Below, one piece after another: positions 46,650-63,454 of a stretch of 64,000 bases of DNA. How positions within the stretch are numbered: the stretch's first letter is position 1; every line of letters starts with the position of its first letter. This DNA comes from Acidisoma cellulosilyticum (lineage in GTDB: Bacteria; Pseudomonadota; Alphaproteobacteria; Acetobacterales; Acetobacteraceae), in the NCBI RefSeq assembly GCF_020621385.1, contig NZ_JAESVA010000004.1, forward strand, positions 482,691 through 546,690, in the 5' to 3' direction. The notes under the pieces were generated by a model that saw only the letters and a list, made by a program, of their open reading frames with translations, was not told the DNA's origin and made no database searches. The position numbers and the translations under genes were made by a program.

Positions 46650-47471
46650 CTATACCAAAATCATCCCGCCGTCACACATGATGATCTGTCCCGTCATATA
46701 GTCGGAATCGGCCGAGGCAAGAAAGGCGCAGATACCCGCGAGGTCAGCCGGAACGGCTGGACGGCCGACCAGGATATTCGCAGAAAACGAATTGAGGAAT
46801 TCGCCCTTCTCCTTGATCACGCCTTTATCGATCATATCCCGCTCCAACCCGTCCCATAGCGGGGTCACGACAACACCCGGTGCAATGCCGTTGACCGTGA
46901 TCTTATGCGGTGCGAATTCACGCGCGGCGGCTTGGGTCAGCGAGATGACGGCAGCCTTGCTTGCGCAATAAGGCGCGAATTCTGCATAGCCCTGGCGCCC
47001 GGCAATGGAGGCCGTGTTGATGATCTTGCCGCCCTGCCGGCTTGCGATCATCTGGCGGCCGACCTCCTGCATGCCGATCAAGACACCAAGGGCATTCACG
47101 CGCATGATGCTGTTGAAATTGGCATCATCGATGTCCATGAACGGCACTGGCTTGTTGAAGCCGGCATTGTTGAACAGCACGTCGATTTTGCCATAGACAC
47201 CGACGACCTTTTCGACCATCGCGCGGGTCGCAATACGGTCCGCGACATCGACTGCCACACCCAGGCCAGAAAACCCCTCTGCCCGCAGGCTTTCTGCTGC
47301 ATGCTCCGCTTTGCCACCGTCAAGATCGGCGATGACGGCATGCGCGCCTTCGGCCGCCACGCGGCGAATAATCCCCTCCCCCAGACCGGAGGCACCGCCG
47401 GTGACGATGACGACCTGACCCGCCAAGCGACCTGCCACGATCCGCGCGTCTTTGGTTGCAAGATCAGTCAT
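46650..47471 (-). CDS. SDR-family NAD(P)-dependent dehydrogenase
   Basis: A 273-residue short-chain dehydrogenase. The cofactor motif is VTGGASGLG near residue 24, NNAG lies near residue 103, the catalytic Ser is in TASIAG, and Tyr-x-x-x-Lys is in YCASK near residue 169. The C-terminus MTGQIIMCDGG is typical. It closes the long minus-strand operon and overlaps the preceding alcohol dehydrogenase by eight bases. The family oxidises polyols, sugars or hydroxy acids; the operon setting suggests a cyclitol-like or polyol substrate (inference). Confidence 0.88.
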   Translation of the reverse strand: MTDLATKDARIVAGRLAGQVVIVTGGASGLGEGIIRRVAAEGAHAVIADLDGGKAEHAAESLRAEGFSGLGVAVDVADRIATRAMVEKVVGVYGKIDVLFNNAGFNKPVPFMDIDDANFNSIMRVNALGVLIGMQEVGRQMIASRQGGKIINTASIAGRQGYAEFAPYCASKAAVISLTQAAAREFAPHKITVNGIAPGVVVTPLWDGLERDMIDKGVIKEKGEFLNSFSANILVGRPAVPADLAGICAFLASADSDYMTGQIIMCDGGMILV

Positions 47472-48447
47472 TGCTCAGGGTCACCTTGATGCATTTATCA
47501 GCCTGCGAGCCAAGGGCAAAAGCCTCGATGCTGCGGCTCAGTGGAAATTCATGCGTGCGGATAGGGGAAAGGTCGAGCTTGGTGCGCTCCAGAAAGCGGA
47601 TTGCCGCCGGCCATACGCCGGGCGAACCAATGCAGCCTCTGACAGTAAGATTGCGCATCTGGATATTGCCCAGATGGGAACTGACCATTCGTCCGATATT
47701 GATTCCGACCATCGACAAGCGGCCTTCTTCCCGCACGAGGTCGAAGACCAGACCGAGAGACGCATCATGGCCGGAGGCTTCCACCACCAGATCGGCACCC
47801 TTCCCTTGTGTCAGCGCCATGACCTGGTCAATCGTGTTTCCGGCCAGCGGATCGATGACCTCGGCCGCCTCAAGCTTCAAAGCGGCGTCCCGTCGGCTTG
47901 CGATTGGATCGATGACGATGACGCGCGCACCCATGCCGATGGCAGCCGCCGCGGACACAAGACCGATAGTGCCGCCGCCGGAGACCACAACCGTCTCGCT
48001 CGCATTCGTGCCGCCGGAGCGTTGCACGGCATAGAAGCCACACGTAAAGGGCTCGATCAGTGACGCAGTCCCGTCATCGATCGTGTCGGGCAATTTGTGC
48101 AGCCATTCCGGCCGAACCACGAAATATTCCCGGTCTGCTCCATTCAGGGAGAAGCCGAAATGGTGAATCCGATCCGGCAAACGCACAACGCATTCACCCA
48201 CCACGCGCTCACCGCGATGGAAACCCTGCACGTTGCGGCCAGTCTCGACAATCTCTCCGCACCATTCGTGGCCGGGCGTCACCGGATAGCTGATCGGAAT
48301 GATGTAGCGGCCCGCGAGCAACTCGTAATCAGAATGGCAGATCCCGACCTTGAGAAGGCGCACGAGAATTTCATTCTCGGTGATTTTAGGCACCGGCACA
48401 TCTTGCAGAACAGGTGCGTCCGGCGTTTCGAAGACGAGCGCTTTCAT
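47464..48447 (-). CDS. zinc-dependent medium-chain alcohol/polyol dehydrogenase
   Basis: A 327-residue MDR dehydrogenase. Catalytic zinc ligands are visible (Cys in VGICHSDYELLAG near residue 37, His in TPGHEWCGE near residue 58), and the cofactor motif is GGGTIGLV near residue 166. The four-Cys structural zinc lobe is absent, a feature shared with sorbitol-dehydrogenase-like members that bind only the catalytic metal. It overlaps both neighbours by four to eight bases and is thus part of the hydroxyquinol operon. The substrate is probably a polyol or sugar-like alcohol. Confidence 0.87.
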   Translation of the reverse strand: MKALVFETPDAPVLQDVPVPKITENEILVRLLKVGICHSDYELLAGRYIIPISYPVTPGHEWCGEIVETGRNVQGFHRGERVVGECVVRLPDRIHHFGFSLNGADREYFVVRPEWLHKLPDTIDDGTASLIEPFTCGFYAVQRSGGTNASETVVVSGGGTIGLVSAAAAIGMGARVIVIDPIASRRDAALKLEAAEVIDPLAGNTIDQVMALTQGKGADLVVEASGHDASLGLVFDLVREEGRLSMVGINIGRMVSSHLGNIQMRNLTVRGCIGSPGVWPAAIRFLERTKLDLSPIRTHEFPLSRSIEAFALGSQADKCIKVTLSND

Positions 48448-49466
48448 GCCGCTTCTCTCCCCTCGCCTTGCACCGCTTCCAACCTTTGGCTTCGCGCGCC
48501 GCGCACGATCGCTTCAAGGAGTGCGATATTCGCGACCATCTCGGCGCCCGTAATGGGATAGGCAGCCTCACCGCGCACGGCGCGCGCAAAGGCCTCAAAA
48601 TTCGTGACTACCGGCTCCGCAGGCTTCACCTCTTCGACCGTGATGGGCTGATCCTTCATGCCGGTGGTGACAACCCATCCGTCCGGCGCTTCGACATGGG
48701 CGCGGTCCCGCACATCGATCCAACCTTCCGTGCCGAAGACAGCGAAACGCGAGAAGAAGGGCGTGGCAAGTGTCGCGCTGATATAGGCGGTGCCGCCGCC
48801 GGCGAAGCGGACATAGGCGCTCATCGTGTCGCCGGAGGGCAAGTCAGACGCCCGCTGTTCGCAGGTCACCAGAACATCGCGCGCCGGGCCCATCAGCTTC
48901 ACGGCGAGGTCCGTCAGATGAATGCCGGTTGCGGTCATGCCACCCGCCGGCGCTTGATCCGGCTTCAACCGCCAGTTTGCCCGATCGAGCTTGAGGAATT
49001 TGTCATGGCTGAAATTGGCCTCGATCTGCAGCAGGCGGCCGAGCGAACCGTTTTCAGCGGCCGTCAGGATCGCGGCGATCGGGGGCTCAAACCGCCGCTC
49101 ATGGCCCATGCCCAGAACAAGCCCGGCCTGCTGGCAGCGCGCGACGGCCTGCTCGGCCCCGGCGCGTGTCAGTGCCAGGGGCTTTTCGCAAAAGACGTGC
49201 TTTCCGGCCGCGACGGTTTGCGCGATCTGCTGCTCGTGAAAGCTATGCGGTGTCACTAGCAGCACGGCTTCGATGGCCGGATCGGCCAATGCATCTTCGA
49301 GAGCTGCCGATACTGGGATTTTGTAGCGATCGGCAAATTGGGTTGCGATGTCCTGATTAACTTCGACCGCGCGCGCGATGCGAATACGAGGATTGCCTTC
49401 GAGCGTCGCCGCGATCTTGCTGCCCCACCAACCGAGCCCGACAAGGGCCACTTTTACCGGTTCCAT
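48444..49466 (-). CDS. Gfo/Idh/MocA family oxidoreductase
   Basis: A 340-residue NAD(P)-dependent dehydrogenase with VALVGLGWWGSKIA at the N-terminus, the EKP motif in HVFCEKPLAL near residue 92, and TATGIHLTDLAVKLMGP with the conserved His near residue 176. ATG 49466 is chosen because GGGAGTG lies nine bases upstream; a further ATG at 49481 lacks one. It starts 39 bases after the thiolase gene and overlaps the alcohol dehydrogenase by four bases, which links sugar- or inositol-type oxidation to the ring-cleavage genes. Confidence 0.88.
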   Translation of the reverse strand: MEPVKVALVGLGWWGSKIAATLEGNPRIRIARAVEVNQDIATQFADRYKIPVSAALEDALADPAIEAVLLVTPHSFHEQQIAQTVAAGKHVFCEKPLALTRAGAEQAVARCQQAGLVLGMGHERRFEPPIAAILTAAENGSLGRLLQIEANFSHDKFLKLDRANWRLKPDQAPAGGMTATGIHLTDLAVKLMGPARDVLVTCEQRASDLPSGDTMSAYVRFAGGGTAYISATLATPFFSRFAVFGTEGWIDVRDRAHVEAPDGWVVTTGMKDQPITVEEVKPAEPVVTNFEAFARAVRGEAAYPITGAEMVANIALLEAIVRGARSQRLEAVQGEGREAA

Positions 49467-49505
49467 CTGTTTCACTCCCATTGTCTTTTTTGCCGCGCGG
49501 TGTCT

Positions 49506-50711
49506 TCAGACCGCTTCCAGCATCAGCGCTATGCCTTGTCCGACGCCAATGCACATCGTCACCAAGGCGAAGCGCCCGCCACGCTGCTCCAGCGCATTGA
49601 CCGCTGTCATGGCCAGCCTGGCGCCAGACGCCCCCAAGGGATGGCCGATAGCGATGGCACCGCCATGCGGGTTGACGTGCTCGGCATCCGCTGGCAGGCC
49701 CAACCGCCGCAGCACGGCAATGGCCTGGGACGCGAAGGCCTCGTTCAGTTCGATGACATCGACATCGCGAATGGACAGGCCGAGGCGCGCAAGCAGCTTT
49801 TCACTGGCGGGTGCCGGCCCCATGCCCATGATGCGCGGCTCAACGCCCGCTGTCGCCATGCCGAGAATCCGCGCGCGCGGCCTTAACCCATGGCGAGCGG
49901 CCGCCGCTTCACTGGCGACGATCAGCGCGGCCGCGCCATCATTCACGCCGGAAGCATTGCCGGCGGTGACCGTGCCACCTGTCTTGCGGAAGGGCGTCGG
50001 CAGTTTCGCCAAAGCATCCAAGCTTGTCTCCGGTCTTGGATGTTCGTCGACCGAGACCACGGTTTCGCTCTTCTTGCCGCGCATGGTGACAGGCACAATT
50101 TCCCGTGCAAAGAAGCCCTCAGCCTGCGCCTTTGCGGCGCGCTGCTGACTGCGCAGTGCAAACTGGTCCTGCTCCGCACGCGACACGCCAAACTGTTCCG
50201 CCACATTCTCGCCGGTCTCCGGCATGGCGTCTGTGCCGTAGAGCGCCTGAAGGGCCGGATTGATGAAGCGCCAGCCGATCGTCGTATCCTCAAGGGCTGC
50301 CTGTCGCGAGAAGGCCTGCGCCTGCTTGCCCATGACGAAGGGCGCCCTTGTCATGCTCTCCACGCCACCAGCCAGCGCGAACTCTCCCTCCCCAGCCCGG
50401 ATCATGCGCGCGGCCGTGCCGAGCGCGTCCAGGCCCGAGCCACAGAGGCGATTGACGGTGCTCCCCGGAACCCCAGGCCCGAAGCCCGCCAGCAGCAGCG
50501 CCATGCGGGCGACGTTACGATTATCCTCACCGGCCTGGTTGGCACAGCCCATGGAGCAGTCGTCCAGCGCATCCCAATCGACGGAGCCGTGTCGCGTGTG
50601 TAGCGTCGCCAGGACATGCGCCAGCATATCGTCGGGACGCAGATCTTTCAGGGCGCCGCCGTAGCGGCCGAAGGGCGTGCGGGCAAAGTCACAGATAAAA
50701 GCTTCAGACAT
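49506..50711 (-). CDS. pcaF: 3-oxoadipyl-CoA thiolase
   Basis: A 401-residue thiolase that splits 3-oxoadipyl-CoA into succinyl-CoA and acetyl-CoA, the last step of the 3-oxoadipate pathway. The nucleophile Cys90 is in STVNRLCGSG, the His is in AIAIGHPLGASGAR near residue 357, and the second Cys is in TMCIGVGQG near residue 387. Its start overlaps pcaJ by eight bases. Sequence alone cannot exclude a general acetyl-CoA acetyltransferase, but the pcaIJ neighbours support pcaF. Confidence 0.9.
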   Translation of the reverse strand: MSEAFICDFARTPFGRYGGALKDLRPDDMLAHVLATLHTRHGSVDWDALDDCSMGCANQAGEDNRNVARMALLLAGFGPGVPGSTVNRLCGSGLDALGTAARMIRAGEGEFALAGGVESMTRAPFVMGKQAQAFSRQAALEDTTIGWRFINPALQALYGTDAMPETGENVAEQFGVSRAEQDQFALRSQQRAAKAQAEGFFAREIVPVTMRGKKSETVVSVDEHPRPETSLDALAKLPTPFRKTGGTVTAGNASGVNDGAAALIVASEAAAARHGLRPRARILGMATAGVEPRIMGMGPAPASEKLLARLGLSIRDVDVIELNEAFASQAIAVLRRLGLPADAEHVNPHGGAIAIGHPLGASGARLAMTAVNALEQRGGRFALVTMCIGVGQGIALMLEAV

Positions 50712-51363
50712 GAACGGTCTCCGCCGCCAGCAGAGAGGCGCCCGTCAGGCGTCTGAGGTCTTCGATGGAAATATCCTGGTGCTTGTCGCGAAGGACAAAA
50801 CCTGCAGGCGTCACGTCGATCACCGCTAAATTGGTGCAGATCCGGCTGACGACGCCGAGCGCCGTCAGTGGATACCGACATTGCTCGACGAGTTTGGGGG
50901 CGCCGTCGCGCGTCGTATGCTCGGTCATAACCCAGACGCGCTTGGCGCCGGCCGCGAGGTCCATCGCGCCACCGACCGCCGGCGCCGCATCGGCCTCCGA
51001 GATCGCCCAATTCGCCAGGTCGCCGTTGCTGGCAACCTCGTAGGCGCCGAGGACGCACAGATCGATATGGCCGCCGCGGATCATCGCGAAACTGTCCGCG
51101 TGATGAAAAAAAGCCCCACCCTTGTGCAGCGTGACATGCTGTTTTCCGGCATTGATCAGCCAAGGATCTTCCTGCCCTTTCTCGGGGGCCGGCCCCATAC
51201 CCAGCAGTCCGTTTTCGGAATGCAGCACCACTTCGCGGTCATCGGGGATCGCGTCGGCGATCAATGTCGGGATGCCGATGCCGAGATTGACATACCATCC
51301 TTCCGGAATCTCGGCAGCAACGCGCGCCGCCATTTCCCGTCTGGACCAACCAGCGGCGCTCAT
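50704..51363 (-). CDS. pcaJ: 3-oxoadipate CoA-transferase beta subunit
   Basis: A 219-residue subunit B of a class I CoA-transferase that moves CoA from succinyl-CoA to 3-oxoadipate. The catalytic Glu50 is in VLHSENGLLG. The sequence GIGIPTL near residue 28 and GGAMDLAAGAKRVWVMTEH near residue 128 are typical. ATG 51363 overlaps the pcaI stop by four bases; the frame runs further upstream without support. Confidence 0.9.
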   Translation of the reverse strand: MSAAGWSRREMAARVAAEIPEGWYVNLGIGIPTLIADAIPDDREVVLHSENGLLGMGPAPEKGQEDPWLINAGKQHVTLHKGGAFFHHADSFAMIRGGHIDLCVLGAYEVASNGDLANWAISEADAAPAVGGAMDLAAGAKRVWVMTEHTTRDGAPKLVEQCRYPLTALGVVSRICTNLAVIDVTPAGFVLRDKHQDISIEDLRRLTGASLLAAETVHV

Positions 51364-52043
51364 GCTGCAAGCTCCTTGGGTAGCGGCAATGTCAGGATGC
51401 GTTGGACGAAGATGCCCGGTGTCACGACCACTTCCGGATCGATGGCGCCGAGCTCGACGAAATAATGCGTCTGCGCGATCGTCAACTTCGCCGCCGTCGC
51501 CATGACCGCGTTGAAATTGCGGCCGCTCTTTTGATAGGTCAGATTGCCCCAACGATCGGCAAACCAGGCTTCGACCAGCGCAACGTCGCCGGGCAGCGCT
51601 TGTTCCAGCACATAGAACCGGCCGCCGATTTCCCGGACTTCCTTGTCCTTAGCGAGCTTCGTGCCATAGCCTGTGGGGGTGAAGAACGCCGGAATGCCGG
51701 CGCCGGCCGCGCGTAGCCTCTCGGCGAGCGTGCCCTGCGGCACAATTTCCAGCTCGATCTTGCCGGCTCGAAACAGATCCTCGAACACAACGGATCCCGC
51801 GCTGCGCGGGAAAGAGCAGATGATACGACGGACGCGCCCGGCCTCCATAAGCTTTGCAAGACCGACCCGCCCTGCTCCGGCATTATTGGCGACAACCGTC
51901 AGGTCACGTGCCCCTTGATCGATCAAAGATTCAATCAATAGATCAGGTTGTCCGACCGCACCGAAACCGCCGACTAAAATCGTCGCGCCGTCTTCAATGC
52001 CCGCGAGCGCCTCCTCGATAGTCGCGACTGATTTGTTGATCAT
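51360..52043 (-). CDS. pcaI: 3-oxoadipate CoA-transferase alpha subunit
   Basis: A 227-residue subunit A of the same transferase. The CoA-binding Gly loop is VGGFGAVGQPD near residue 23, and the conserved FFTPTGYGT lies near residue 121. Paired with pcaJ in the usual alpha-then-beta order. Scot-type transferases for acetoacetate are close relatives; the ring-cleavage context favours 3-oxoadipate. Confidence 0.9.
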   Translation of the reverse strand: MINKSVATIEEALAGIEDGATILVGGFGAVGQPDLLIESLIDQGARDLTVVANNAGAGRVGLAKLMEAGRVRRIICSFPRSAGSVVFEDLFRAGKIELEIVPQGTLAERLRAAGAGIPAFFTPTGYGTKLAKDKEVREIGGRFYVLEQALPGDVALVEAWFADRWGNLTYQKSGRNFNAVMATAAKLTIAQTHYFVELGAIDPEVVVTPGIFVQRILTLPLPKELAA

Positions 52044-52065
52044 GATGTGTGAACCACTGGAGGCA

Positions 52066-53733
52066 TCAGGCAGCCCTCCTGCTTGATTTGTGACGAAAAA
52101 TGCCGTCGATCCGCCGCTGAGCGGAAACGAGGGCTGCTCTGTCCGTTGTTTGCCCGGTCAGGGCATCATGCACTTCCTGGCCGATGATCGCTTCCATCGC
52201 GACATATTCGGGAATCGGCGGGCGCTGCCAGCTGTCGAGCAGATCGCGCCGCGCCACGCGCTCCACAAAGTTCACGATCGGTGAGCTTTGCATGACCTCA
52301 GGGTCAGAGATCACGCTGAAACGCGGACGCACCGGCAGTCCGCTTTTCAGATGATCCCGCACCGTATCGGGCGAGGTGATCCAGGCGATCGCATCGACCG
52401 CAAGGCGCATGCGCTCTTCCGGCAGATTGCTCGGAACTGCGAGCACAAAACCGCCGATCGGCGCTGTCACCTTGCCTTGGGGGCCGGCAGGATGCGGCAG
52501 GTATTCCACCTTGCGGCCGACTTTGGAGCGCGTGTCGTATTCAAAACGCGCGGCCCGCATGCTCCAGCAATAGGTCATCGCCGCGTGCCCGGTTAGAAAG
52601 GTATCGAGGCTTGCTTCCCAATCCAATTCCGTCACACCAGGCGGCGAAATCTCCACCAGCCTGTGCATATAGTCGAGGACGCGCAGCCCCGCTGTCATGT
52701 CGATGACCGGCCTTACGGGTTTGCTGGCTGTCTTGGCAGAGCGGTCCAACAAAAAGCTTCCGCAATCGCCGAGCAGGAACAGGAAACTCGCGGCGATCGG
52801 CATGCCTCGCGCCGCATTCCAGGTAATGCCATAGCGGCCATGGGCGGGCGCGTGCAGCGCCTTGCCGGCAGCCAGCACCTGTTCGAAGTTCGACGGAAAC
52901 CCGATATTGGCTTCCTGAAAAAGATCCCGCCGCACCGCCAATGTCTCGATCGTACAATAGATCGGCATGCCGTATTGCGTGCCACGCCATTTGCCGGTTG
53001 CCCAGAAATCCGCATGAAATTCGGTCGGCTCCAACCCGGCATCCCGCACCACATTGCCGAGCGGGCGAATGAAACCCTTGGCCGCGAATTCCCCCATCCA
53101 GGGAATATTGATGGCAACGATATCATATTGCGAGACGGGCCTTTGGGCATTTTCCATCGCAAGTTGATAAAGCTGCGGCAGGCGCGCCAAGGTAAAGTCG
53201 CGACGGGAGCCAAAGCTTGTTCGCAGATCAGCCCACATATTCTGCAACGCGACGAAATAATTGTCCTCTGCCAGCAGAAAGCGAATGTCGAAGCGCTTGC
53301 TGTGCTGAGCGCCGGGTGACCCGCCGATAGGCGAAGCGCCGAAATAATAGTCCTCGCTCGCCTCCCCAGGGCCGCGACTACCCAGGGTTTGAGCGACCGC
53401 GCGCTTCACCTCAACCAGATAGGATTCGAACAGTTTCTTGAGCTTCGCACTTGGCTGCAGAGCGAATGATTTCCCTGTCTTCGTGCGCGGCACGCGGGTA
53501 ATCAGCCCCGCGTCTATCAACTCCTCGACCTTGCGTAACGCCGTGGTGTAAGGCGCGTAACCGGCCTGGGCTAAAGCCGAGATGGTGACGATATCCCCAC
53601 GGGTCACACTGCTCATGAGATGATGGACCAACTGCCAAACGAGTTCGCTGTCACCTTGTGGAAATGCTTTTGCCCAGGGCGAGCGTAGCTTCTGCAGAAA
53701 GTCCAGAATCCTCAGGAGTTCAAGGTCATTCAT
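52066..53733 (-). CDS. regulator-like fusion: winged helix plus solute-binding-protein fold
   Basis: A 555-residue cytoplasmic protein with no signal peptide. Residues 1-115 look like a MarR-type winged helix, with ISALAQAGYAPYTTALRKVE and a wing ending GKSFALQPS. Residues 150-550 match a family-1 extracellular sugar-binding protein (IVAINIPWMGEFAAKGFI near residue 205, YGMPIYCTIETLAVRRDLF near 255, and PIGGFVLAVPSN near 425). Normally this fold is periplasmic; here it would serve as an intracellular ligand sensor joined to DNA binding. It sits inside the hydroxyquinol operon, between the dehydrogenase and pcaI, so it probably reads a pathway compound and controls the operon. Related proteins occur in a few proteobacteria and tend to be annotated simply as solute-binding proteins. 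Confidence 0.8.
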   Translation of the reverse strand: MNDLELLRILDFLQKLRSPWAKAFPQGDSELVWQLVHHLMSSVTRGDIVTISALAQAGYAPYTTALRKVEELIDAGLITRVPRTKTGKSFALQPSAKLKKLFESYLVEVKRAVAQTLGSRGPGEASEDYYFGASPIGGSPGAQHSKRFDIRFLLAEDNYFVALQNMWADLRTSFGSRRDFTLARLPQLYQLAMENAQRPVSQYDIVAINIPWMGEFAAKGFIRPLGNVVRDAGLEPTEFHADFWATGKWRGTQYGMPIYCTIETLAVRRDLFQEANIGFPSNFEQVLAAGKALHAPAHGRYGITWNAARGMPIAASFLFLLGDCGSFLLDRSAKTASKPVRPVIDMTAGLRVLDYMHRLVEISPPGVTELDWEASLDTFLTGHAAMTYCWSMRAARFEYDTRSKVGRKVEYLPHPAGPQGKVTAPIGGFVLAVPSNLPEERMRLAVDAIAWITSPDTVRDHLKSGLPVRPRFSVISDPEVMQSSPIVNFVERVARRDLLDSWQRPPIPEYVAMEAIIGQEVHDALTGQTTDRAALVSAQRRIDGIFRHKSSRRAA

Positions 53734-53762
53734 TGCAATTCCTAAGCCCTGTTTCCTGTTCC

Positions 53763-55582: not shown

Positions 55583-56652
55583 GCTTGCTCCTCCTGAGGC
55601 GGTTTCCCCGCGAAAGCATTCTGGAGAAGCCTGCGTAGCGCCGCTGTCTCCAACGGTCGTGGGTTAGGATAAGGGCGTGCCGCCGCTTGGGTAACGGCCT
55701 GCTCGATATCAGCTTCGCGCATGCCGATCTCTGCCAGGCTGAGCGGTGCGCCCAGGCGCCGGGACAGATCATACAGCCCTTGCGCGGCATTCTCTGCCCC
55801 CAGAGCCGATGCGATGCGCCGCATCGCCTCCGGCGCACCCGCGGCATTATATGCGACCGCATGGGGCAGCACGACGGTATGGGTCGGTGCATGAGGAAGA
55901 TTGAAGGACCCACCGAGCACATGACAAAGCTTGTGATGCAGCGCCATGCCCACAGAACCGAGTGCGATGCCGCAAAGCCAGGCACCATAGAGCGCCTGAT
56001 GGCGTGCATCCCGGTCATGAGGATCTGCCACGATGATCGGCAAAGCCTTCGCCAGCGCCTTGATCGCCTCCTCCGCCATCAGGGAGATGATCGGATTGCG
56101 CTCCTCCGCATAAAGCGCTTCGACCGCATGGGCGATGGCATTCATGCCACTTGTCGCGCTGATCGCTGGCGGCAGGCTGAGTGTCAAGGACACGTCGTAA
56201 ATCGTCGTCTCCGGCAGCACTTTCGGCGTACGCAGCGTGATTTTCTCGCCGTTCTTCGTTTCGCCGAGGATCGGTGTCATTTCTGACCCGGCATAGGTCG
56301 TCGGCACGGCGATTTGCGGCAAGTCCGTGCGCAGAGCGATGGCTTTGCCGAGGCCGGTGGTCGATCCGCCACCGACGGAGACCACGCCGTCCACATTCAG
56401 GGACTGCACGACGGCCAGGGCCTGCTCGGTGATGTCGACCGGCGTATGCATGGTCGCCCGGTCGAAAAGTCCGACGGCAAGCGTACCGAGACGCGCCGCG
56501 ATATCGGCGGCCTGGTCTTTTTGCTCCGGCGTCGACAGCACGAGGATTCTTCCCATGCCGAGGCGCTCTGCCTCTTCCGGCAATTGCGCCAAGGTGCCGT
56601 CGCCAAAGACGACGCGCATCGGCAGGCCATCAAATACAAATGGTTCTAGCAC
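55579..56652 (-). CDS. maleylacetate reductase
   Basis: A 357-residue iron-alcohol-dehydrogenase-fold enzyme that reduces maleylacetate to 3-oxoadipate with NAD(P)H. GGGSTTGLGKAIAL near residue 94, AVPTTYAGSEMTPI near residue 116, and the histidine-containing ALHHKLCHVLGG near residue 237 are all typical. It is the first gene of the ten-gene operon, with divergent transcription from the ribose-type importer. Together with the dioxygenase and pcaIJF it completes the route from hydroxyquinol to succinyl-CoA and acetyl-CoA. Confidence 0.92.
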   Translation of the reverse strand: MLEPFVFDGLPMRVVFGDGTLAQLPEEAERLGMGRILVLSTPEQKDQAADIAARLGTLAVGLFDRATMHTPVDITEQALAVVQSLNVDGVVSVGGGSTTGLGKAIALRTDLPQIAVPTTYAGSEMTPILGETKNGEKITLRTPKVLPETTIYDVSLTLSLPPAISATSGMNAIAHAVEALYAEERNPIISLMAEEAIKALAKALPIIVADPHDRDARHQALYGAWLCGIALGSVGMALHHKLCHVLGGSFNLPHAPTHTVVLPHAVAYNAAGAPEAMRRIASALGAENAAQGLYDLSRRLGAPLSLAEIGMREADIEQAVTQAAARPYPNPRPLETAALRRLLQNAFAGKPPQEEQA

Positions 56653-56898
56653 TTTGCCTCCCGTAATCGCGCGACGTCATATTATTTGTGCGGCGCATCA
56701 TAGGACTGCACCGCGCGTCGGCTTCAGCCCAACTTAGGTTCGCCATCCTGCCAGGGCGAGATGTAAATTGTCCAATTTGAACAATTTCAATCTAGCCAAA
56801 CTGCGTTTTGAGTTCCACCCTCTCGGAAACTGAGGCAGCGTTGTCTCGGCAAGATAAACAAAAATGGATTGCCATCATCGGCAACCAAGAGGGGAAAC
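56653..56898. promoter_or_regulatory. divergent control region between hydroxyquinol operon and CUT2 importer
   Basis: No gene lies in these 246 bases. At 56765-56787 there is an inverted repeat, AAATTGT, nine bases, then ACAATTT, inside an A/T-rich patch that stands out in this GC-rich DNA. A second, overlapping symmetry is TTGAA-CAAT-TTCAA. The position between the two operons fits a shared operator; the winged-helix fusion at 52066-53733 is the most obvious candidate binder. The importer start has AGAGGGGA as its ribosome site. Confidence 0.5.
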
Positions 56899-58056
56899 AT
56901 GAGGAACGGATTCAAAGCCGCGCTTCTCGGCACGCTGGCTGCTGGCTTTCTCGCAGGCGTCGGTCATGCGCAAAGCCAACCCGCAACGCCCGCCGGATAT
57001 CAAGGCGCGCCGCGCACGGAACTTTTCAATCCGGCGCTCACCACCTGCATTCGCGACACCTCGAAATACAAGAAGGCGCCTCCCTATACGATCGGCTTCT
57101 CCAATGCCGGTCTCGGTGACAGCTGGCGCGTCGTCGCATTGGATGAATTGAAGCAAGGTGCCGAAGACCACAAGGACGTCATCAAAAAGCTGATTATTAC
57201 CGATGCTGGGCATGATGACGCCAAGCAAGTCTCGGACGTGCAGGATCTTGCGTCTCAAGGCGTTGATCTGATGATTGTCAGCGCGAATACTGAAAAGGCG
57301 CTTGACCCGATCGTCACGCGCGTGATGCGCCAGGGTATTCCGGTCATCATGCTCGACCGTCGCATCTCATCCGATCATTTCGTCACCTATATCAACGCCT
57401 CGGATCCCATGATGGGCCGCCTCTGGGCGCAGTGGATCGTCGAGAAGCTGCATGGCAAGGGCAATGTCGTGCTGCTCGGTGGTCAGGCCGGGTCAAGCCC
57501 GAGCGAAAACCGCATGAATCCGGCCAAGGAGATCTTCGCGCAATATCCCGGCATTCATATCCTCGACACGGTCTATTCGGACTGGAGCCCCGTGAAGGGT
57601 AAGCAGGTCATGCAGGCCGTCATCGCCAAATACGGTCACAAGATCGACGCGGTCTGGTCGGCCCATGGCCTGCAGGTGCCTGGCTCGATCGAGGCCTTCG
57701 TGGAGGCCGGCTTCAAGCCTGGTGAAATTCCGATGCACACCACGGCGGACGTCAACGGCCCGTTGCTTGAAGCCATCAAGTATAAAGTGCCGATGCTGGA
57801 GATCAGCGACCCGCCGTCACAGTATCGCACAGCGATCGACGTTGCCCTGAAAGTATTGAGCGGCGCGGCCGTTCCCTGCACCTATACCGTGAACTCTCAG
57901 ATCTCGGTGACCCCTGGCGACGAGACGCCGTCGATCAAGAGCGATGTCCCGTTCGACAGCCTGGGCCTGCCGGATAAGCCGTCCAACTACCTCGTGACCA
58001 ATGATCTCGGGCCGACCTACGATCCGACGACCGCGCATACTCAATATCCGCATTGA
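56899..58056 (+). CDS. ribose-type (CUT2) ABC transporter substrate-binding protein
   Basis: A 385-residue periplasmic binding protein of the RbsB/family-4 type. The signal peptide ends near residue 24 (GHAQ). The paired Rossmann-like lobes carry TIGFSNAGLGDSW near residue 61, DLMIVSANTEKALDPIV near residue 125, and VIMLDRRI near residue 150. ATG 56899 with a strong ribosome site is preferred over the upstream in-frame start. Relatives bind ribose, xylose, inositol, erythritol and other polyols. The divergent hydroxyquinol operon suggests an unusual cyclic or polyol substrate. Confidence 0.9.
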   Translation: MRNGFKAALLGTLAAGFLAGVGHAQSQPATPAGYQGAPRTELFNPALTTCIRDTSKYKKAPPYTIGFSNAGLGDSWRVVALDELKQGAEDHKDVIKKLIITDAGHDDAKQVSDVQDLASQGVDLMIVSANTEKALDPIVTRVMRQGIPVIMLDRRISSDHFVTYINASDPMMGRLWAQWIVEKLHGKGNVVLLGGQAGSSPSENRMNPAKEIFAQYPGIHILDTVYSDWSPVKGKQVMQAVIAKYGHKIDAVWSAHGLQVPGSIEAFVEAGFKPGEIPMHTTADVNGPLLEAIKYKVPMLEISDPPSQYRTAIDVALKVLSGAAVPCTYTVNSQISVTPGDETPSIKSDVPFDSLGLPDKPSNYLVTNDLGPTYDPTTAHTQYPH

Positions 58057-58063
58057 GGTCGCC

Positions 58064-59560
58064 ATGCTTTCGGTCAGCGGCATCCGTAAAGCCTTCCCCG
58101 GCGTGCAAGCGCTCGCCGGGGTCAAGCTTGAGGTCAAGGCCGGGGAAATTCATGCCCTGGTTGGTGAAAATGGCGCCGGCAAGTCGACGCTGACCCGGAT
58201 CATCGCGGGCGTGGAATCGCCCGACGAAGGCGAAATCCGCCTCGGTGAGGCGGTCGTCCAATGGCATGGACCGGCACAAGCCAAGGCAGCCGGCATCCAT
58301 GTCATCTATCAGGAATTCGTGCTCTTCCCGCATCTGACGGTCGCCGAAAACATCTTTCTTGGCCGCATGCCGCGCAACCGTCTCGGTCTTCTTGACCACG
58401 CGCAGGCCGAACGGCGGTCGCGGGAGATTCTGGATCGGCTTGGCGTTTCGATCGACGTGCGTCAGCAAGTGCGCTTGCTGACGGTCGCCGACCAGCAGAT
58501 GGTCGAGATCGCCAAGGCAATGATCGATACGCCGAAGGTGCTCATTCTTGACGAGCCAACGGCTGTCATCGCGGGCCGGGAGGTGGAACTGCTCTTCACG
58601 CGGTTGCGCCGGCTGCGCGAGGCTGGTGTCGCCATCATCTATATTTCGCATCGGCTGGACGAGATTTTCGCGCTATGCGACCGGCTGACCGTGATCAAGG
58701 ACGGGCAATGGATCGCGACACAGCCGGTCGCCGGCATGACACGCGACACGCTGATTACAATGATGGTCGGCCGCGATCTCGCCCATCTTTTCCCGCCCCA
58801 TGAACAGCCGCCGCCGGCCCAGCCGGACGTCGTGCTGCAAGCGCAGGACATTCATGTCGGCAGGCGCGTGCTCGGCTGCAGTCTGGAACTGCATGCCGGC
58901 ATCATCACAGGTCTTGCCGGTATGGTTGGGTCAGGACGCTCGGAACTCGCGATGGCGATCTTCGGCGGCCTGCCGATGGAACGCGGCACCGTCACGATCG
59001 CCGGGCGGAGCTTCCGCACGATCACGCCAGGACAGGCAATCAGCCTTGGTATCGGCTTCGTGACCGAGGATCGTAAAGGCCAAGGCCTCGCCATGCTGCA
59101 GCCTATCGGGGCCAATATCAGCGCCGCAAGTCTGGAGACGGTCCGGCGCGGGGTGATGCGGGACGGCCGCCGCGAATGGCAAATCGCTGAGGAAGATATC
59201 GCAAGCTATCAAATTGCTTGCCGCGGTCCCGGCACGCTGGTCTCGACCATGTCCGGCGGCAACCAGCAGAAAGTGTTGATCGCTCGGTGGGCAAGGGCCT
59301 GTCACCGTGTGCTGATCCTGGATGAGCCGACACGCGGCGTCGATGTCGGCGCGCGTGCGGAGATTTATCGGATCATGCGTGGGCTCGCGGCCCGCGGCAT
59401 TGCGATCCTGATGATCAGTTCCGAACTGCCGGAAGTCGTCGGCATGTCCGACCGCGTCTATGTCATGCGTGAGGGATCGATCACGGGCATCCTGGAAAAG
59501 GATGAGATCACCGAGGAAGCGGTCGTCGACCTCGCGACGCATGACCGGCAGGCTGCCTGA
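58064..59560 (+). CDS. ribose-type ABC transporter ATPase (two-domain)
   Basis: A 498-residue ATPase with two fused nucleotide-binding domains. The first has Walker A VGENGAGKST near residue 36 and Walker B VLILDEPTAVI near residue 160. The second has a degenerate Walker A (GMVGSGRSEL, near residue 287) and the signature SGGNQQKVLIARW near residue 397, the usual CUT2 asymmetry. The frame opens upstream at 58001, but ATG 58064 gives the family start, MLSVSGIRKAFPGVQ. It lies seven bases after the binding-protein gene. Confidence 0.92.
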   Translation: MLSVSGIRKAFPGVQALAGVKLEVKAGEIHALVGENGAGKSTLTRIIAGVESPDEGEIRLGEAVVQWHGPAQAKAAGIHVIYQEFVLFPHLTVAENIFLGRMPRNRLGLLDHAQAERRSREILDRLGVSIDVRQQVRLLTVADQQMVEIAKAMIDTPKVLILDEPTAVIAGREVELLFTRLRRLREAGVAIIYISHRLDEIFALCDRLTVIKDGQWIATQPVAGMTRDTLITMMVGRDLAHLFPPHEQPPPAQPDVVLQAQDIHVGRRVLGCSLELHAGIITGLAGMVGSGRSELAMAIFGGLPMERGTVTIAGRSFRTITPGQAISLGIGFVTEDRKGQGLAMLQPIGANISAASLETVRRGVMRDGRREWQIAEEDIASYQIACRGPGTLVSTMSGGNQQKVLIARWARACHRVLILDEPTRGVDVGARAEIYRIMRGLAARGIAILMISSELPEVVGMSDRVYVMREGSITGILEKDEITEEAVVDLATHDRQAA

Positions 59561-59571
59561 GGAGAAACGGC

Positions 59572-60546
59572 ATGAGCATCACCGCCACTACGGCCCTGCC
59601 GCGCAACAGGGCGCGTCGCTTGCCTGAGCAAGTGCTGCGACTTGGCATCGTCGTTCTTTTGATCGTTGTCATCACGGTTCTGGGCTGTCTTGTCTCGGAT
59701 CGCTTCGGCACGCTCAATAATTTTCTGAATGTCTATGAGCAATCGACGGATCTGGCACTCGTCGCGCTCGGGCAGACTTTGACGATTCTGACGGGCGGTA
59801 TCGACCTGTCTGTCGGCTCCATGATCAGTCTGCTGTCGGTCCTGACCTCGGGCATCATCAACAGCAATGGCGATCTGGTGCTCCCCGTCTGCGCCGGCAT
59901 CATTGTGCTCGGCATGGTCATCGGCCTCATCAATGGCATCGCCATCGTGATGCTCAGGGTGCATCCATTGATCGTCACGCTCGGCACCGGCGCCGTGCTG
60001 CAGGGTCTGGCCCTGCTATACACCATGGCGCCTGCGGGCGGGGTGCCGGACGGTTTCGACTTCCTGGCCTATGGCCGCATCGCGGATATATCGGTCGGCG
60101 CGACGATCGTGCTCCTCGTCTATCTGCTCGCCAGTTTCCTGATGCGGCGGACGGCCACGGGTCGCAATATCTACGCGATCGGCGATGACAGACACGCTGC
60201 CGTGCTGCTGGGCTTGCCCGTCAAACGGCTGACGATGCTCGTCTACACTTTGTCCGGTCTGCTTTGCGCGATGACAGCGATCTATCTGGTCGCGCGGTTC
60301 GGGTCCGGCCAGCCTTACGCGGGGGCGAACTACACGCTCGCCTCCGTGACCCCCGTCGTTGTCGGTGGCACCATGCTGAGCGGCGGCCGCGGCGGTGTCA
60401 TCGGCACGCTGCTCGGCGCCTATCTCATCGCGCTGCTCAATGACTTCCTGAATTTCCTCCACGTATCGACCGAAATCCAGCTCGTCGTGCAGGGGCTGAT
60501 CATCATGCTGGCCGTTTCGGCCTATCGCGAAGGGAAGAGAGGCTGA
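59572..60546 (+). CDS. ribose-type ABC transporter permease 1
   Basis: A 324-residue RbsC-like permease with eight to ten membrane segments. The conserved QTLTILTGGIDLSVGSMISL motif lies near residue 65, and TPVVVGGTMLSGGRGGVIGTL near residue 260. It overlaps the next permease by one base (TGATG). Confidence 0.9.
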   Translation: MSITATTALPRNRARRLPEQVLRLGIVVLLIVVITVLGCLVSDRFGTLNNFLNVYEQSTDLALVALGQTLTILTGGIDLSVGSMISLLSVLTSGIINSNGDLVLPVCAGIIVLGMVIGLINGIAIVMLRVHPLIVTLGTGAVLQGLALLYTMAPAGGVPDGFDFLAYGRIADISVGATIVLLVYLLASFLMRRTATGRNIYAIGDDRHAAVLLGLPVKRLTMLVYTLSGLLCAMTAIYLVARFGSGQPYAGANYTLASVTPVVVGGTMLSGGRGGVIGTLLGAYLIALLNDFLNFLHVSTEIQLVVQGLIIMLAVSAYREGKRG

Positions 60547-61529
60547 TGAAAGTGGATGCTATTCCGCAGGTCCGCTCGCTCGTCACCAAGTCAGGTCGGG
60601 GCAGCAAACCAAGGCTGAGCGACTCTATCGCGCGCTACGCGATCTACATCTTTCTCGTTCTGCTGCTCATACTGTCCGGCATCGCGGCGCCGTCCTTTCT
60701 GAGCCAGCAGAATCTCTCCAACCTCGTGCTGCAAACCGTGCCGCTGGCGATCGTTGTTATCGGCCAGGCCATTGTCATCATGACCGGCGGGCTTGATCTG
60801 TCGGTCGCCTCCGTCATGGCGACAGCGGCGGTCGCCGGCACTTGCTTCGCGGGCGGCGTCGGCGCGGTCATCGAAATACTCGTCGTATCGCTGTTCATCG
60901 GTGGCGCCACCGGGCTCGTCAACGGTCTGCTGGTCGCCAAGCGACAGGTTTCCCCCTTCCTCGCAACGCTTGCCAGCATGATCGTTCTGCAGGGTCTGCG
61001 TTTCGCCTGGACGAAGGGCGCGCCGAGCGGCGGCCTGCCACCTATCCTGCGGGTCGTCGGTTCCGGCACCTGGCACGGCATTCCGGTCAATCTGGCCGTT
61101 CTGGCCGTCCTGGCTGTCGCTGCCTGCTTCATCGTCCATTTCACGCTGCTCGGCCGGCGGTTCATGATCACAGGCGGCAACCAGGTCACGGCAAGGCTTC
61201 TCGGCTATCCTGTCGATAGGATCATCATCGGCAGTTACGTCGCCTCCGGCCTGCTGGCCGCCATCGCCGGCGTCGTTCTGGGTGGCTATGCCGAAATCGT
61301 CGATAATCAGGTCGGTCGTGGTTTCGAACTCGACAGCATTGTCGCGGCGGTCATCGGCGGTGTCGCGCTCTCGGGCGGGCGTGGCACCATCCCGGGTGCC
61401 CTGGCGGGTGCGGCCGTGCTGATGCTGGCAGCCAATGCCGTGCTGCTGCTCGGCCTGCCGATCCAGTTCCAGATCGTGCTAAAAGGCGTCGTCATCGTTC
61501 TTGCCGCCGCCTGCTACGTGCGGCGCTGA
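60546..61529 (+). CDS. ribose-type ABC transporter permease 2
   Basis: A 327-residue RbsC-like permease, related to but distinct from the preceding one, with AIVIMTGGLDLSVASVMA near residue 77 and AAVIGGVALSGGRGTIPG near residue 277. Two unequal permeases imply a heterodimeric channel, as in some polyol and sugar CUT2 systems. The N-terminal 35 residues are polar and basic. Confidence 0.9.
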   Translation: MKVDAIPQVRSLVTKSGRGSKPRLSDSIARYAIYIFLVLLLILSGIAAPSFLSQQNLSNLVLQTVPLAIVVIGQAIVIMTGGLDLSVASVMATAAVAGTCFAGGVGAVIEILVVSLFIGGATGLVNGLLVAKRQVSPFLATLASMIVLQGLRFAWTKGAPSGGLPPILRVVGSGTWHGIPVNLAVLAVLAVAACFIVHFTLLGRRFMITGGNQVTARLLGYPVDRIIIGSYVASGLLAAIAGVVLGGYAEIVDNQVGRGFELDSIVAAVIGGVALSGGRGTIPGALAGAAVLMLAANAVLLLGLPIQFQIVLKGVVIVLAAACYVRR

Positions 61530-61561
61530 CGGCAGCCGTTCAGACCAAGAAAGGCAAGCTC

Positions 61562-62335
61562 ATGTCGATCGATTCTCTCTATCGCCTGGATGGGCGCGTC
61601 GCCGTGGTGACTGGCGCTGAGCGTGGTATCGGCGCCACCATCGCGGAGCATCTTCTGTCCCTCGGTGCCACCGTCGTCCTCGCCGACCGGTCGCCGGGCG
61701 TGCGCGAAACCGCGCAGCGTCTGGACCCGGACGGCAAACGCACGTCCTGGCTGACACTGGACGTGACGGATTCTGGCTCCCTGGATGCGGCGGCGGAAAC
61801 CGTGGTCAGCCGTCACGGTCAGGTCGATATCCTGGCCGCCAATGCCGGCATCAGCTATGAGGCCGCCGCCATCGACCATACCGATGAAATTTGGCGCCGT
61901 GCGCTTTCCGTCAATCTCGACGGCAGCTTCTATTCCGCCCGCGCCTTCGCGCGCCCCATGCTGCAACGCGGCAAGGGTGCCATTGTGCTGACATCCTCGA
62001 TCGCCGGCGTGAAGGTCGTCAGGCCGGAACTGCATGTCGGTTACGATGTCGCCAAGGCCGGCGTCGCGCATATGACACGCGTGCTCGGCATCGAATGGGC
62101 GAAGCAAGGCTTGCGCGTCAATGCCGTGGGTCCCGGCTATACCGATACCGAAATGCTGGCGGATGTCGGGCGCACGCAGCCCGAAGTCATGAAGATCTGG
62201 CTGGAAGACATGCCGAACGGGCGGTTGCTGCGCAAGCAGGAGATCGCCTCCGCCGTCGCCTTCCTCGCCTCGGACGCCGCATCCGGCATCAACGGCCATG
62301 TTCTGATGGTCGATGCCGGCTATTCCATTTCCTGA
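61562..62335 (+). CDS. SDR-family NAD(P)-dependent dehydrogenase
   Basis: A 257-residue short-chain dehydrogenase with VTGAERGIGATIAEH near residue 17, ANAGISYEA near residue 94, the catalytic Ser in LTSSIAG near residue 143, and Tyr-x-x-x-Lys in VGYDVAKAG near residue 161 (Tyr-Asp-Val-Ala-Lys). It starts 32 bases after the importer genes and is co-transcribed with them. The probable role is oxidation of the imported compound. Confidence 0.88.
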   Translation: MSIDSLYRLDGRVAVVTGAERGIGATIAEHLLSLGATVVLADRSPGVRETAQRLDPDGKRTSWLTLDVTDSGSLDAAAETVVSRHGQVDILAANAGISYEAAAIDHTDEIWRRALSVNLDGSFYSARAFARPMLQRGKGAIVLTSSIAGVKVVRPELHVGYDVAKAGVAHMTRVLGIEWAKQGLRVNAVGPGYTDTEMLADVGRTQPEVMKIWLEDMPNGRLLRKQEIASAVAFLASDAASGINGHVLMVDAGYSIS

Positions 62336-62349
62336 TAAGGAGAAAAGCC

Positions 62350-62643
62350 ATGCATTTCACCATTCATTGCCTGGACAAAGCCGGTGCTGTGGAACAAAGG
62401 CTCGCGCATTACGATGCTCATAAAGCCTATCTATCCTCGGCACCGATCACCATGCTCGTGTCAGGTCCGCTTCTGGCGCCGGATCACGAGACGATGATCG
62501 GCAGTTTCTTTCTTGTCGAAGCGGATAGCCAGGCGCAGGTTGAAGCCTTCCATAACAACGACCCCTTCAAGAAGGCGGCGATCTGGGAAAAGGTTTCGAT
62601 CCATCCTTTTCTGAAGCGCGTCGATAATCGCGCTGCGACATAA
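62350..62643 (+). CDS. YciI-family protein (TftG-like dehydratase or dehydrohalogenase candidate)
   Basis: A 97-residue YciI-fold (ferredoxin-like) protein. The His-Asp pair typical of the family is visible (HYDAHKAYL near residue 20, following CLDKAGAV), with MIGSFFLVEADSQAQVE near residue 50 and NDPFKKAAIWEKV near residue 75. The frame extends upstream, but ATG 62350 is the only sensible start and has AGGAGA upstream. In the 2,4,5-T pathway, the YciI-type protein TftG eliminates HCl from 5-chlorohydroxyquinol. Here it is linked to hydroxyquinol genes, so an elimination step on a trihydroxy ring or its precursor is possible (inference). Confidence 0.82.
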   Translation: MHFTIHCLDKAGAVEQRLAHYDAHKAYLSSAPITMLVSGPLLAPDHETMIGSFFLVEADSQAQVEAFHNNDPFKKAAIWEKVSIHPFLKRVDNRAAT

Positions 62644-62661
62644 CAAAATCGAGGGACGACA

Positions 62662-63429
62662 ATGGGACGCCTAGACCAAAAAATCGCGATCATAACGGGC
62701 GGCGGCACCGGTATCGGGGAAGCCACCTGCCAGCGATTCGCTGAGGAAGGGGCCAAGGTTGCGGTCTTTGAAATCAGTGCCGAGAACGGTGGCAAGACAG
62801 CGGAAAAGCTGCGTAGTCTTGGTGCTGATGCCGATTTCTTTCAAGTCGACGTGCGCGATGCGGACAGTGTTTCAAGCGCTGTCGCGGCGGTCGCAGACAA
62901 ATGGGGCCAGATCGACATCCTGGTGAATAATGCGGCCATCCCGGGCGCCAATAAATTCACTCATGATCTCAGCCTTGAGGAATTCGAGGCTGTCTTCGCC
63001 GTCAATGTGCGCGGCACCTTCCTGTGTTCCAAATACGTGCTGCCGCATATGATGCAGGCGAAGCGCGGCGCGATCGTGAATTTCTCCTCGATCTATGGTC
63101 TGATCGGCAATGACGATCTGCCGCCCTATCATGCGACCAAGGGCGCGGTGCTGCTGATGACCAAGACGGACGCCATCTGCTATGCGCCTTACGGCATCCG
63201 CGTCAATTGCGTGCACCCCGGCTCGACGAAGACGCCGCTTTTCATGAAGGCGGGCGAAACCTATCCAGGCGGTCTGCAGCATTATCTCGACATGATGAAG
63301 GCGAAGCATCCGCTGACATTGGGTGAGCCGGTCGATGTCGCGAATTGCGTGCTGTTCCTGGCCTCGGATGAAGCGCGTTTTGTGACGGGCGCCAGTCTGG
63401 CCTGTGACGGCGGCTATACGGCGCAATAA
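62662..63429 (+). CDS. SDR-family NAD(P)-dependent dehydrogenase
   Basis: A 255-residue short-chain dehydrogenase with ITGGGTGIGEATCQRF near residue 12, NNAAIPG near residue 90, the catalytic Ser in NFSSIYG near residue 139, and Tyr-x-x-x-Lys in YHATKGA near residue 155. It is not a copy of the SDR at 61562. It lies 18 bases after the YciI gene. Having two different SDRs and a zinc dehydrogenase in one operon suggests successive oxidations of a polyhydroxy compound. Confidence 0.88.
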   Translation: MGRLDQKIAIITGGGTGIGEATCQRFAEEGAKVAVFEISAENGGKTAEKLRSLGADADFFQVDVRDADSVSSAVAAVADKWGQIDILVNNAAIPGANKFTHDLSLEEFEAVFAVNVRGTFLCSKYVLPHMMQAKRGAIVNFSSIYGLIGNDDLPPYHATKGAVLLMTKTDAICYAPYGIRVNCVHPGSTKTPLFMKAGETYPGGLQHYLDMMKAKHPLTLGEPVDVANCVLFLASDEARFVTGASLACDGGYTAQ

Positions 63430-63454
63430 CACCGCCGAACAAAGGATAAACTCC

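Follow-up and report, generated by a model that had tools for sequence, protein, structure and literature searches.

The 64,000-nt stretch analysed here (the window; C4:482691-546690 of the 6.0 Mb draft genome of Acidisoma cellulosilyticum, G000) carries a hydroxyquinol ring-cleavage operon that is joined to dehydrogenase genes and lies opposite a ribose-type (CUT2) importer. Ten frames on the minus strand (46650-56652) are all open and either overlap or lie no more than 29 bases apart, and the families of their products were assigned with Pfam. In ascending order, they encode a short-chain dehydrogenase/reductase (SDR) of 273 amino acids (aa; 46650-47471, adh_short); a zinc medium-chain dehydrogenase/reductase (MDR) that resembles threonine and scyllo-inosose dehydrogenases (MDR327; 47464-48447); a Gfo/Idh/MocA dehydrogenase (48444-49481); a thiolase (49506-50711, Pfam thiolase), named PcaF-like from its context; PcaJ-like (50704-51363) and PcaI-like (51360-52043) CoA-transferase subunits; a 555-aa protein (52066-53733); a HIBADH-type dehydrogenase with an uncertain start (53763-54656); hydroxyquinol 1,2-dioxygenase (54653-55582); and a predicted maleylacetate reductase (55579-56652). 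The first-pass annotation of this DNA had described such an operon and a divergent importer, and both descriptions held. One of the ten genes, missing from its list, encodes the 555-aa protein, which contains a solute-binding protein (SBP) domain.

On the plus strand, the substrate-binding protein of the importer (56899-58056; Pfam Peripla_BP_4, with relatives in the PDB) is followed by its double ATPase (58064-59560, start chosen after the stop of the SBP gene), two permeases (59572-60546 and 60546-61529), a 257-aa SDR (61562-62335), a YciI-like protein (62350-62643), a 255-aa SDR (62662-63429), and an MDR (MDR372; 63455-64000), which crosses the window end and continues to L005:1212 in the adjoining sequence. 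All of these frames are open; the ATPase, the permeases, and the SDRs were identified by domain matches. The cluster and its flank together hold seven dehydrogenases. The best PDB match of the window dioxygenase is the 6-chlorohydroxyquinol dioxygenase 8r2x, and the matches that follow include the hydroxyquinol dioxygenase 1tmx. Its residues Y162, Y196, H220, and H222, which we take to be the Tyr/Tyr/His/His iron ligands, are invariant in alignment A1. The gene overlapping that of the dioxygenase belongs to the Fe-ADH family, and its probable maleylacetate reductase activity was assigned from this position. The YciI-like protein is related in sequence to TftG (5-chloro-2-hydroxyhydroquinone dehydrochlorinase), its nearest solved relative (1.2e-11).

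No hydroxylase was found among the frames of 46650-64000, in the 25.9 kb from the window end to the contig end (frames of at least 170 or 200 aa), or in a second hydroxyquinol cluster of the same genome on C14 (frames of at least 220 aa), in agreement with the first-pass annotation, which had reported none in the cluster. The genome-wide searches were restricted to the FAD_binding_3, HpaB, and group-D flavin oxygenase families. Matches to FAD_binding_3 are located tens of kb or more from the clusters (best, C2:29570), group-D oxygenases are present only on C16 and C6, and HpaB gave no match. A resorcinol-type pathway with a nearby hydroxylase of these families could be traced neither in the genome nor in the flanks and was set aside.

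Related clusters were collected from two sets of genomes, with scripted gene calling and labelling. A search for the dioxygenase in 200 genomes of the same order gave a match at 1e-40 in 61, and 40 neighbourhoods were fetched; from named genomes, the best 80 of at least 592 dioxygenase relatives were kept. Window-like loci (class P) were found in 13 alphaproteobacterial genomes, namely that of A. cellulosilyticum and those with L088, L038, L039, L054, L056, L058, L095, L108, L109, L113, G635, and G667; the last two joined the class later, and G679 and L088, whose contigs agree in length and gene order, were counted as one. MDR372 and the CUT2 ATPase are present in all 13, MDR327, Gfo/Idh, YciI, and HIBADH each in 12, and the 555-aa protein in 11. 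A PRISE enone reductase is encoded in or beside 10 of the 13 clusters, and the A. cellulosilyticum copy is located elsewhere. The stretch read in G073 is without MDR327, Gfo/Idh, YciI, and PRISE. Where present, the MDRs and Gfo/Idh are 60-87% identical to the window copies (MDR327, 65-87% in 11 of the 12 other genomes; Gfo/Idh, 60-78% in 11; MDR372, 64-84% in all 12), and the HIBADH and 555-aa proteins 41-80%. The 273-aa SDR has 50-79% relatives in 5 of the 12 (G679, G061, G635, G667, and L095) and a 69% relative in G090. The first-pass reading of a hydroxylase-free cluster that feeds hydroxyquinol cleavage is supported, and the cluster is maintained across genomes: much of its upper part is found again together with a dioxygenase in 13 genomes, that of A. 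cellulosilyticum included.

Loci resembling the C14 cluster (L006) form class Q (L125, L134, L136, L144, L159, L166, and L167), which is mostly betaproteobacterial. Class P mostly carries the gene for the 555-aa protein with its sugar-type binding domain. The class Q version has IolG and a QuiC-related TIM barrel of the AP_endonuc_2 type; the QuiC model is matched by L006 and L167 and not by L134. Culturable carriers are Devosia psychrophila for class P (L113) and Paraburkholderia metrosideri for class Q (L159), among others. Gfo/Idh genes lie near the dioxygenase in this class except in L006, and CUT2 and maleylacetate reductase genes are present in most of its longer loci. The Gfo/Idh protein encoded beside the L125 dioxygenase scores 394.6 bits against the IolG cut-off of 355, and it has 79-97% relatives in L134, L136, L159, and L166 and none in the L144 and L167 sequence examined. 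Class R is defined by a FAD_binding_3 hydroxylase, mostly encoded directly before the dioxygenase (Pfam 6e-111 for the L092 protein).

Among the 80 named loci, a FAD_binding_3 hydroxylase was detected with our own HMM in 40, and a group-D flavin oxygenase in seven more. None of the 12 named class P and Q loci (L088, L095, L108, L109, L113, and seven of class Q) contains such a flavin hydroxylase, whereas 47 of the 68 others do (Fisher p 5.9e-6), a comparison in which the loci of related species are not independent, contig ends cut several loci, and the classes were defined after the loci had been inspected. L146 and L162, which were first placed in class Q and removed for want of a TIM-barrel gene, are counted among the 68. 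The FAD_binding_3 HMM had no match even at E 1 in 23 class P, class Q, and A. cellulosilyticum loci, and none at 1e-5 in further stretches including the MDR327-anchored clusters. A Pfam scan of unlabelled frames covered 110 frames in 22 loci (112 of at least 150 aa, minus three in LysR positions, plus one labelled) and the 25 commonest of 104 families, so that less common kinds of hydroxylase may have escaped it.

When MDR327 was used as the anchor (1e-100), it was found in 1 of 385 genomes of the taxonomic class, that of A. cellulosilyticum, and in 9 of 299 genomes of the order. The cluster contains a dioxygenase in eight of these nine; the exception, G090, has the Gfo-MDR-SDR genes with no dioxygenase within the 20 kb read. 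A quick tree built from 124 dioxygenases scatters the 11 class P members included over five places (window/L088/L038/L039; L095/L109; L054/L056/L058; L108; L113). The tree implies seven label changes, at least five of which are forced by well-supported branches. A single inherited lineage of class P dioxygenases was rejected, since a single clade costs 478 log-likelihood units on this tree (p-AU 1.85e-75). The same upper pathway appears to have become linked, more than once, to distinct hydroxyquinol dioxygenases; this would be expected of a pathway whose product is the substrate of these enzymes.

The 555-aa protein is probably a one-component regulator, with an N-terminus read as a winged helix. 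Its C-terminal domain is of the CUT1 SBP type (Pfam SBP_bac_1) and matches the sugar and sorbitol SBPs 5iai and 4rya in the PDB. SgrR-type regulators combine a DNA-binding domain with a solute-binding domain. The 555-aa protein likewise has a C-terminal solute-binding domain and no evident signal peptide; however, this domain is of the sugar type, the DNA-binding part is a prediction, and the protein has no NCBIfam match. Relatives at 1e-60 occur in 7 other genomes of the 385. CUT2 genes stand beside all eight distant relatives that were read, and no dioxygenase and no match to the FAD_binding_3 hydroxylase was seen in the same eight loci. IolE and IolG exceed their cut-offs near the relative in L187, as does IolG in L182. 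In the 1.4 Mb genomes of L187-L189, CUT2 importers, the 555-aa relative, and IolE/IolG (checked in L187) are in one island, and the palindrome described below occurs in all three.

A near-perfect, operator-like palindrome (AAATTGTCCAA-T-TTGAACAATTT; 56765-56787) lies between the divergent halves of the cluster and is the sole strong site in the window for a matrix built from ten sites, partly picked by eye. Seven of the eight class P genomes that were not used to build the matrix have a site scoring at least 20, and L109 has none; G090, which was not counted, also has none. In a control of 2.19 Mb from 117 loci, six sites were found, four of them in one locus.

The enzymes of the cluster give hints at its chemistry. 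The scyllo-inosose 3-dehydrogenase IolM is among the two best NCBIfam models for both MDRs (best for MDR372 and second best for MDR327), far below its cut-off. No IolE-like frame was seen in the window or flank, iolD is absent from the cluster, and neither a 3-dehydroshikimate dehydratase nor a protocatechuate dioxygenase was seen among the frames of 40000-64000. By atom balance, a deoxyinositol would give hydroxyquinol through one oxidation and the loss of two waters, and an inositol through one oxidation, one reduction, and the loss of three waters; the latter route would thus use an enone reductase. Deoxy-scyllo-inosose is converted to hydroxyquinol chemically, and quercitol dehydrogenases exist in Burkholderia. 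The L088 PRISE is strongly homologous to progesterone 5beta-reductase (1.9e-76). The A. cellulosilyticum PRISE, a 72% copy on C2, is encoded beside an HxlR-like gene, and the G667 cluster holds a similar pair. Enzymes of the PRISE type act on activated C=C bonds of 1,4-enones, which they reduce (PMC11643720). Passages of PMC5327690 describe keto-inositols as aromatising via enolisation and beta-elimination to tetra-, penta-, and hexahydroxybenzene derivatives, and inosose esters as yielding 1,2,3,5-tetrahydroxybenzene chemically. The chemical synthesis of 1,2,4-trihydroxybenzene from myo-inositol derivatives is mentioned in PMC11467972.

From the observed gene content, its recurrence with several dioxygenase lineages, the conserved palindrome, and the absence of hydroxylases of the searched kinds, we infer a substrate class, an order of reactions, and a role for each protein as follows. 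The substrate of the CUT2 importer would be a polyhydroxylated compound and most likely a cyclitol, whether an inositol, a methyl-inositol, or a deoxyinositol, and the Gfo/Idh, MDR, and SDR dehydrogenases would turn its ring hydroxyls into ketones. Water would be lost by beta-elimination beside the ketone, perhaps with the help of the TftG-like YciI protein or, in class Q, of a TIM-barrel protein. The PRISE enone reductase, which is encoded elsewhere in this genome, may adjust the redox state, and the ring would tautomerise to hydroxyquinol. The hydroxyquinol dioxygenase would then open the ring, maleylacetate reductase would form 3-oxoadipate, and PcaIJF would convert it to succinyl-CoA and acetyl-CoA. 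The 555-aa protein may respond to the imported substrate or to an intermediate formed early from it, and may control the divergent promoter at 56765-56787.

A hydroxylase-free upper pathway that feeds hydroxyquinol cleavage is the best-supported reading of these data, and we consider it marginally probable that hydroxyquinol is formed by aromatisation of a polyol, probably a cyclitol, without an aromatic hydroxylase. A polyol is likely as the substrate and a cyclitol is our best guess, because of the CUT2 importers, the sugar-type domain of the regulator, and the inositol dehydrogenase and dehydratase genes beside related regulators and dioxygenases. The first-pass annotation had proposed quercitol. 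The evidence speaks for the polyol or cyclitol class to which it belongs and does not single out quercitol, since a deoxyinositol would not require as many as seven dehydrogenases, nor the enone reductase of 10 of 13 clusters, and this equipment would fit an inositol as well; several compounds are candidates, quercitol among them.

Several findings weigh against this reading. The window has no clear gene for a dehydratase. Except for broad subfamilies, its dehydrogenase profile matches are below the cut-offs, and the Gfo/Idh protein, with 115 of the 355 bits set by NCBI, was rejected as IolG. The substrate of TftG is a chlorinated hydroxyquinol. In class P, maleylacetate reductase is present in 8 and PcaF in 4 of the 13 stretches read, and the importer and YciI genes also occur with hydroxylases (among 40 hydroxylase loci, CUT2 in four, namely L110, L120, L128, and L130, and YciI, at least 45%, in L117). 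Neither hydroxylase type was found in 21 of the 68 other named loci. The linkage of a hydroxylase to relatives of the cluster, a check that the first-pass annotation had suggested, gave a divided answer: the contrast among the named loci was obtained, but it vanishes within the order of A. cellulosilyticum, where FAD_binding_3 hydroxylases occur in 0 of 40 loci and group-D oxygenases in 2 of 5 class P loci (L056 and L058) versus 3 of 35 others (L051, L055, and L077). Whatever the class of the dioxygenase locus, few in this order have a hydroxylase (5 of 40). In the two class P genomes concerned (G112 and G073), a group-D flavin monooxygenase gene (HsaA/XiaF/HPA-C2-like) lies ~0.5 kb downstream of the dioxygenase gene. 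G019 (L077) has such a monooxygenase also at a second dioxygenase copy, and G090 has one beside its Gfo-MDR-SDR genes, with no dioxygenase there. Furthermore, iolD exceeds its cut-off in the A. cellulosilyticum genome, only on C2, and in 18 of 21 further genomes, a set made up of classes P and Q, three members of class R, and L146; therefore, the imported compound is probably not plain myo-inositol.

An ordinary pathway for resorcinol, a phenol, or a chlorophenol, with its hydroxylase encoded elsewhere or lost from the cluster, would agree with the likeness of YciI to TftG, the FAD_binding_3 proteins elsewhere in the genome (such as that at C2:29570), the group-D genes in L056, L058, and L077, and the 35 of 40 loci of the order that show neither flavin hydroxylase type anyway. 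However, the sugar-type importer and the seven dehydrogenases would be left unexplained, the named loci of classes P and Q differ from the others (0 of 12 versus 47 of 68), and the relatives of the regulator sit with CUT2 genes without a dioxygenase; such a pathway is improbable. The importer would equally serve an aryl O- or C-glycoside, whose sugar would be oxidised by Gfo/Idh and other dehydrogenases and eliminated as a 3-keto sugar to leave hydroxyquinol or a close relative as the aglycone. AP_endonuc_2 TIM barrels, the type seen in class Q, also act in C-glycoside cleavage, and the relatives of the window Gfo/Idh protein include the C-glycoside enzyme DgpA (4.2e-12). We regard this explanation as unlikely, as no glycosidase or sugar catabolic genes were seen among the window frames, and PRISE and the regulators beside IolE/IolG suit a carbocycle better.

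The opened ring might instead be a tetrahydroxybenzene, formed from an inosose by the loss of two waters and accepted, with its extra hydroxyl, by the dioxygenase and reductase. PMC5327690, with its chemical route from inosose esters to 1,2,3,5-tetrahydroxybenzene, and the IolG gene beside the class Q dioxygenase are consistent with this. However, PcaIJF in the operon calls for 3-oxoadipate, and thus for a trihydroxybenzene, and PRISE suggests a reduction, which makes the idea decidedly unlikely. Least probable, to our judgement, is the mere adjacency of two unrelated pathways for polyol oxidation and beta-ketoadipate metabolism. The link between them is presumptive, and G090 has the Gfo-MDR-SDR genes without a dioxygenase in the 20 kb read; however, the genes overlap, the dioxygenase is kept in eight of the nine MDR327-anchored genomes, and several dioxygenase lineages are joined to the same upper genes.

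A. cellulosilyticum has four dioxygenases of the hydroxyquinol dioxygenase family. The second (L005), which is 45% identical to that of the window, lies 1.3-2.3 kb beyond the window end, accompanied by FAH and GntR regulator genes, after which come genes for an SDR, another CUT2 importer, and YciI. Intradiol dioxygenase genes paired with FAH and GntR genes also occur in L066-L070, L072, L073, and L076. The C14 cluster contains SDRs, a TIM barrel, YciI, a cupin, an MDR, CUT2 genes, maleylacetate reductase, a dioxygenase, and PcaIJF; the best NCBIfam model for its TIM barrel is QuiC, at 1.5e-23, far below the cut-off. A third dioxygenase cluster of this genome (L007) was left unclassed. A further CUT2 importer is located on the minus strand ~12 kb beyond the window end (L005:12803-17459), and divergent from it, at ~18 kb, is a quinate/shikimate-type dehydrogenase gene over the NCBIfam cut-off. 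The adjoining frames (L079:4102-12464; C4:564102-572464) were read as QuiC, PcaH, PcaG, PcaB, PcaD/C, and an MFS transporter, and this importer presumably serves these quinate-type genes. No pcaIJF was found between them and the contig end. The window PcaIJF may also serve this quinate/shikimate-to-protocatechuate set. Co-regulation of the quinate genes through the same palindrome was considered and dropped, as L005 and L079 have no site scoring at least 18. In L108, a relative of the L079 QuiC gene adjoins the class P cluster.

Other contexts of the dioxygenase were also seen. In L060-L064, of the same family, its gene stands beside a BKACE (DUF849)-like gene, with YciI in L060-L063, LacI-type regulators in L061-L064, and no FAD_binding_3 hydroxylase match in any of the five; this is possibly another setting of hydroxyquinol cleavage. 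Within the window, a transposase-like gene with HTH domains (45047-46396) adjoins the operon end, preceded by a secreted-looking repeat protein (43124-44782) whose C-terminal stretch appears by eye to be a Hint/intein-type domain.

Compared with the hydroxyquinol pathway for resorcinol and chlorophenols, the window retains the dioxygenase, maleylacetate reductase, PcaIJF-like end steps, and a TftG-like YciI protein. However, it lacks a hydroxylase of the searched kinds, has polyol-type dehydrogenases in front, and contains a CUT2 importer, whereas the hydroxylase-linked loci mostly have Liv-type genes, judging from their gene labels. With inositol catabolism (iolG, iolE, and iolD, or the IolG-IolM route), it shares the CUT2 importer and the Gfo/Idh and MDR dehydrogenases, and relatives of its regulator stand beside IolE/IolG. 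It differs in that its Gfo/Idh protein is below the IolG cut-off, IolE and IolD are absent from the cluster, iolD is separate, and the route finishes with the cleavage of an aromatic ring. Schemes of aromatic catabolism usually begin with aromatic compounds, quinate and shikimate being the familiar non-aromatic entries. By analogy with their conversion to protocatechuate (dehydrogenase, QuiC, and PcaGH), the window route would oxidise a hydroxylated carbocycle, dehydrate it, aromatise it, and cleave the ring; however, its product would be hydroxyquinol, and QuiC is absent from the window.

We suggest tentatively, as a view that falls somewhat short of probable, that the two classes represent an undescribed cyclitol catabolism. 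In it, oxidation, dehydration, and reduction would convert inositols or deoxyinositols into hydroxyquinol, or in certain bacteria perhaps into tetrahydroxybenzene, with no oxygenase acting before ring cleavage, and classes P and Q would each have joined more than one dioxygenase lineage. Among the literature matches listed, which consist of titles and abstract openings with subscription papers mostly outside their scope, no work joins hydroxyquinol with cyclitol catabolism. One regulator and one palindrome provide a testable regulon. If the proposal is true, ring alcohols from plants would be connected with the beta-ketoadipate pathway by a route from cyclitols to hydroxyquinol. The hydroxyquinol dioxygenases that occur without a hydroxylase would then have a function, and the route would offer enzymes to make trihydroxybenzenes from ring polyols in water.

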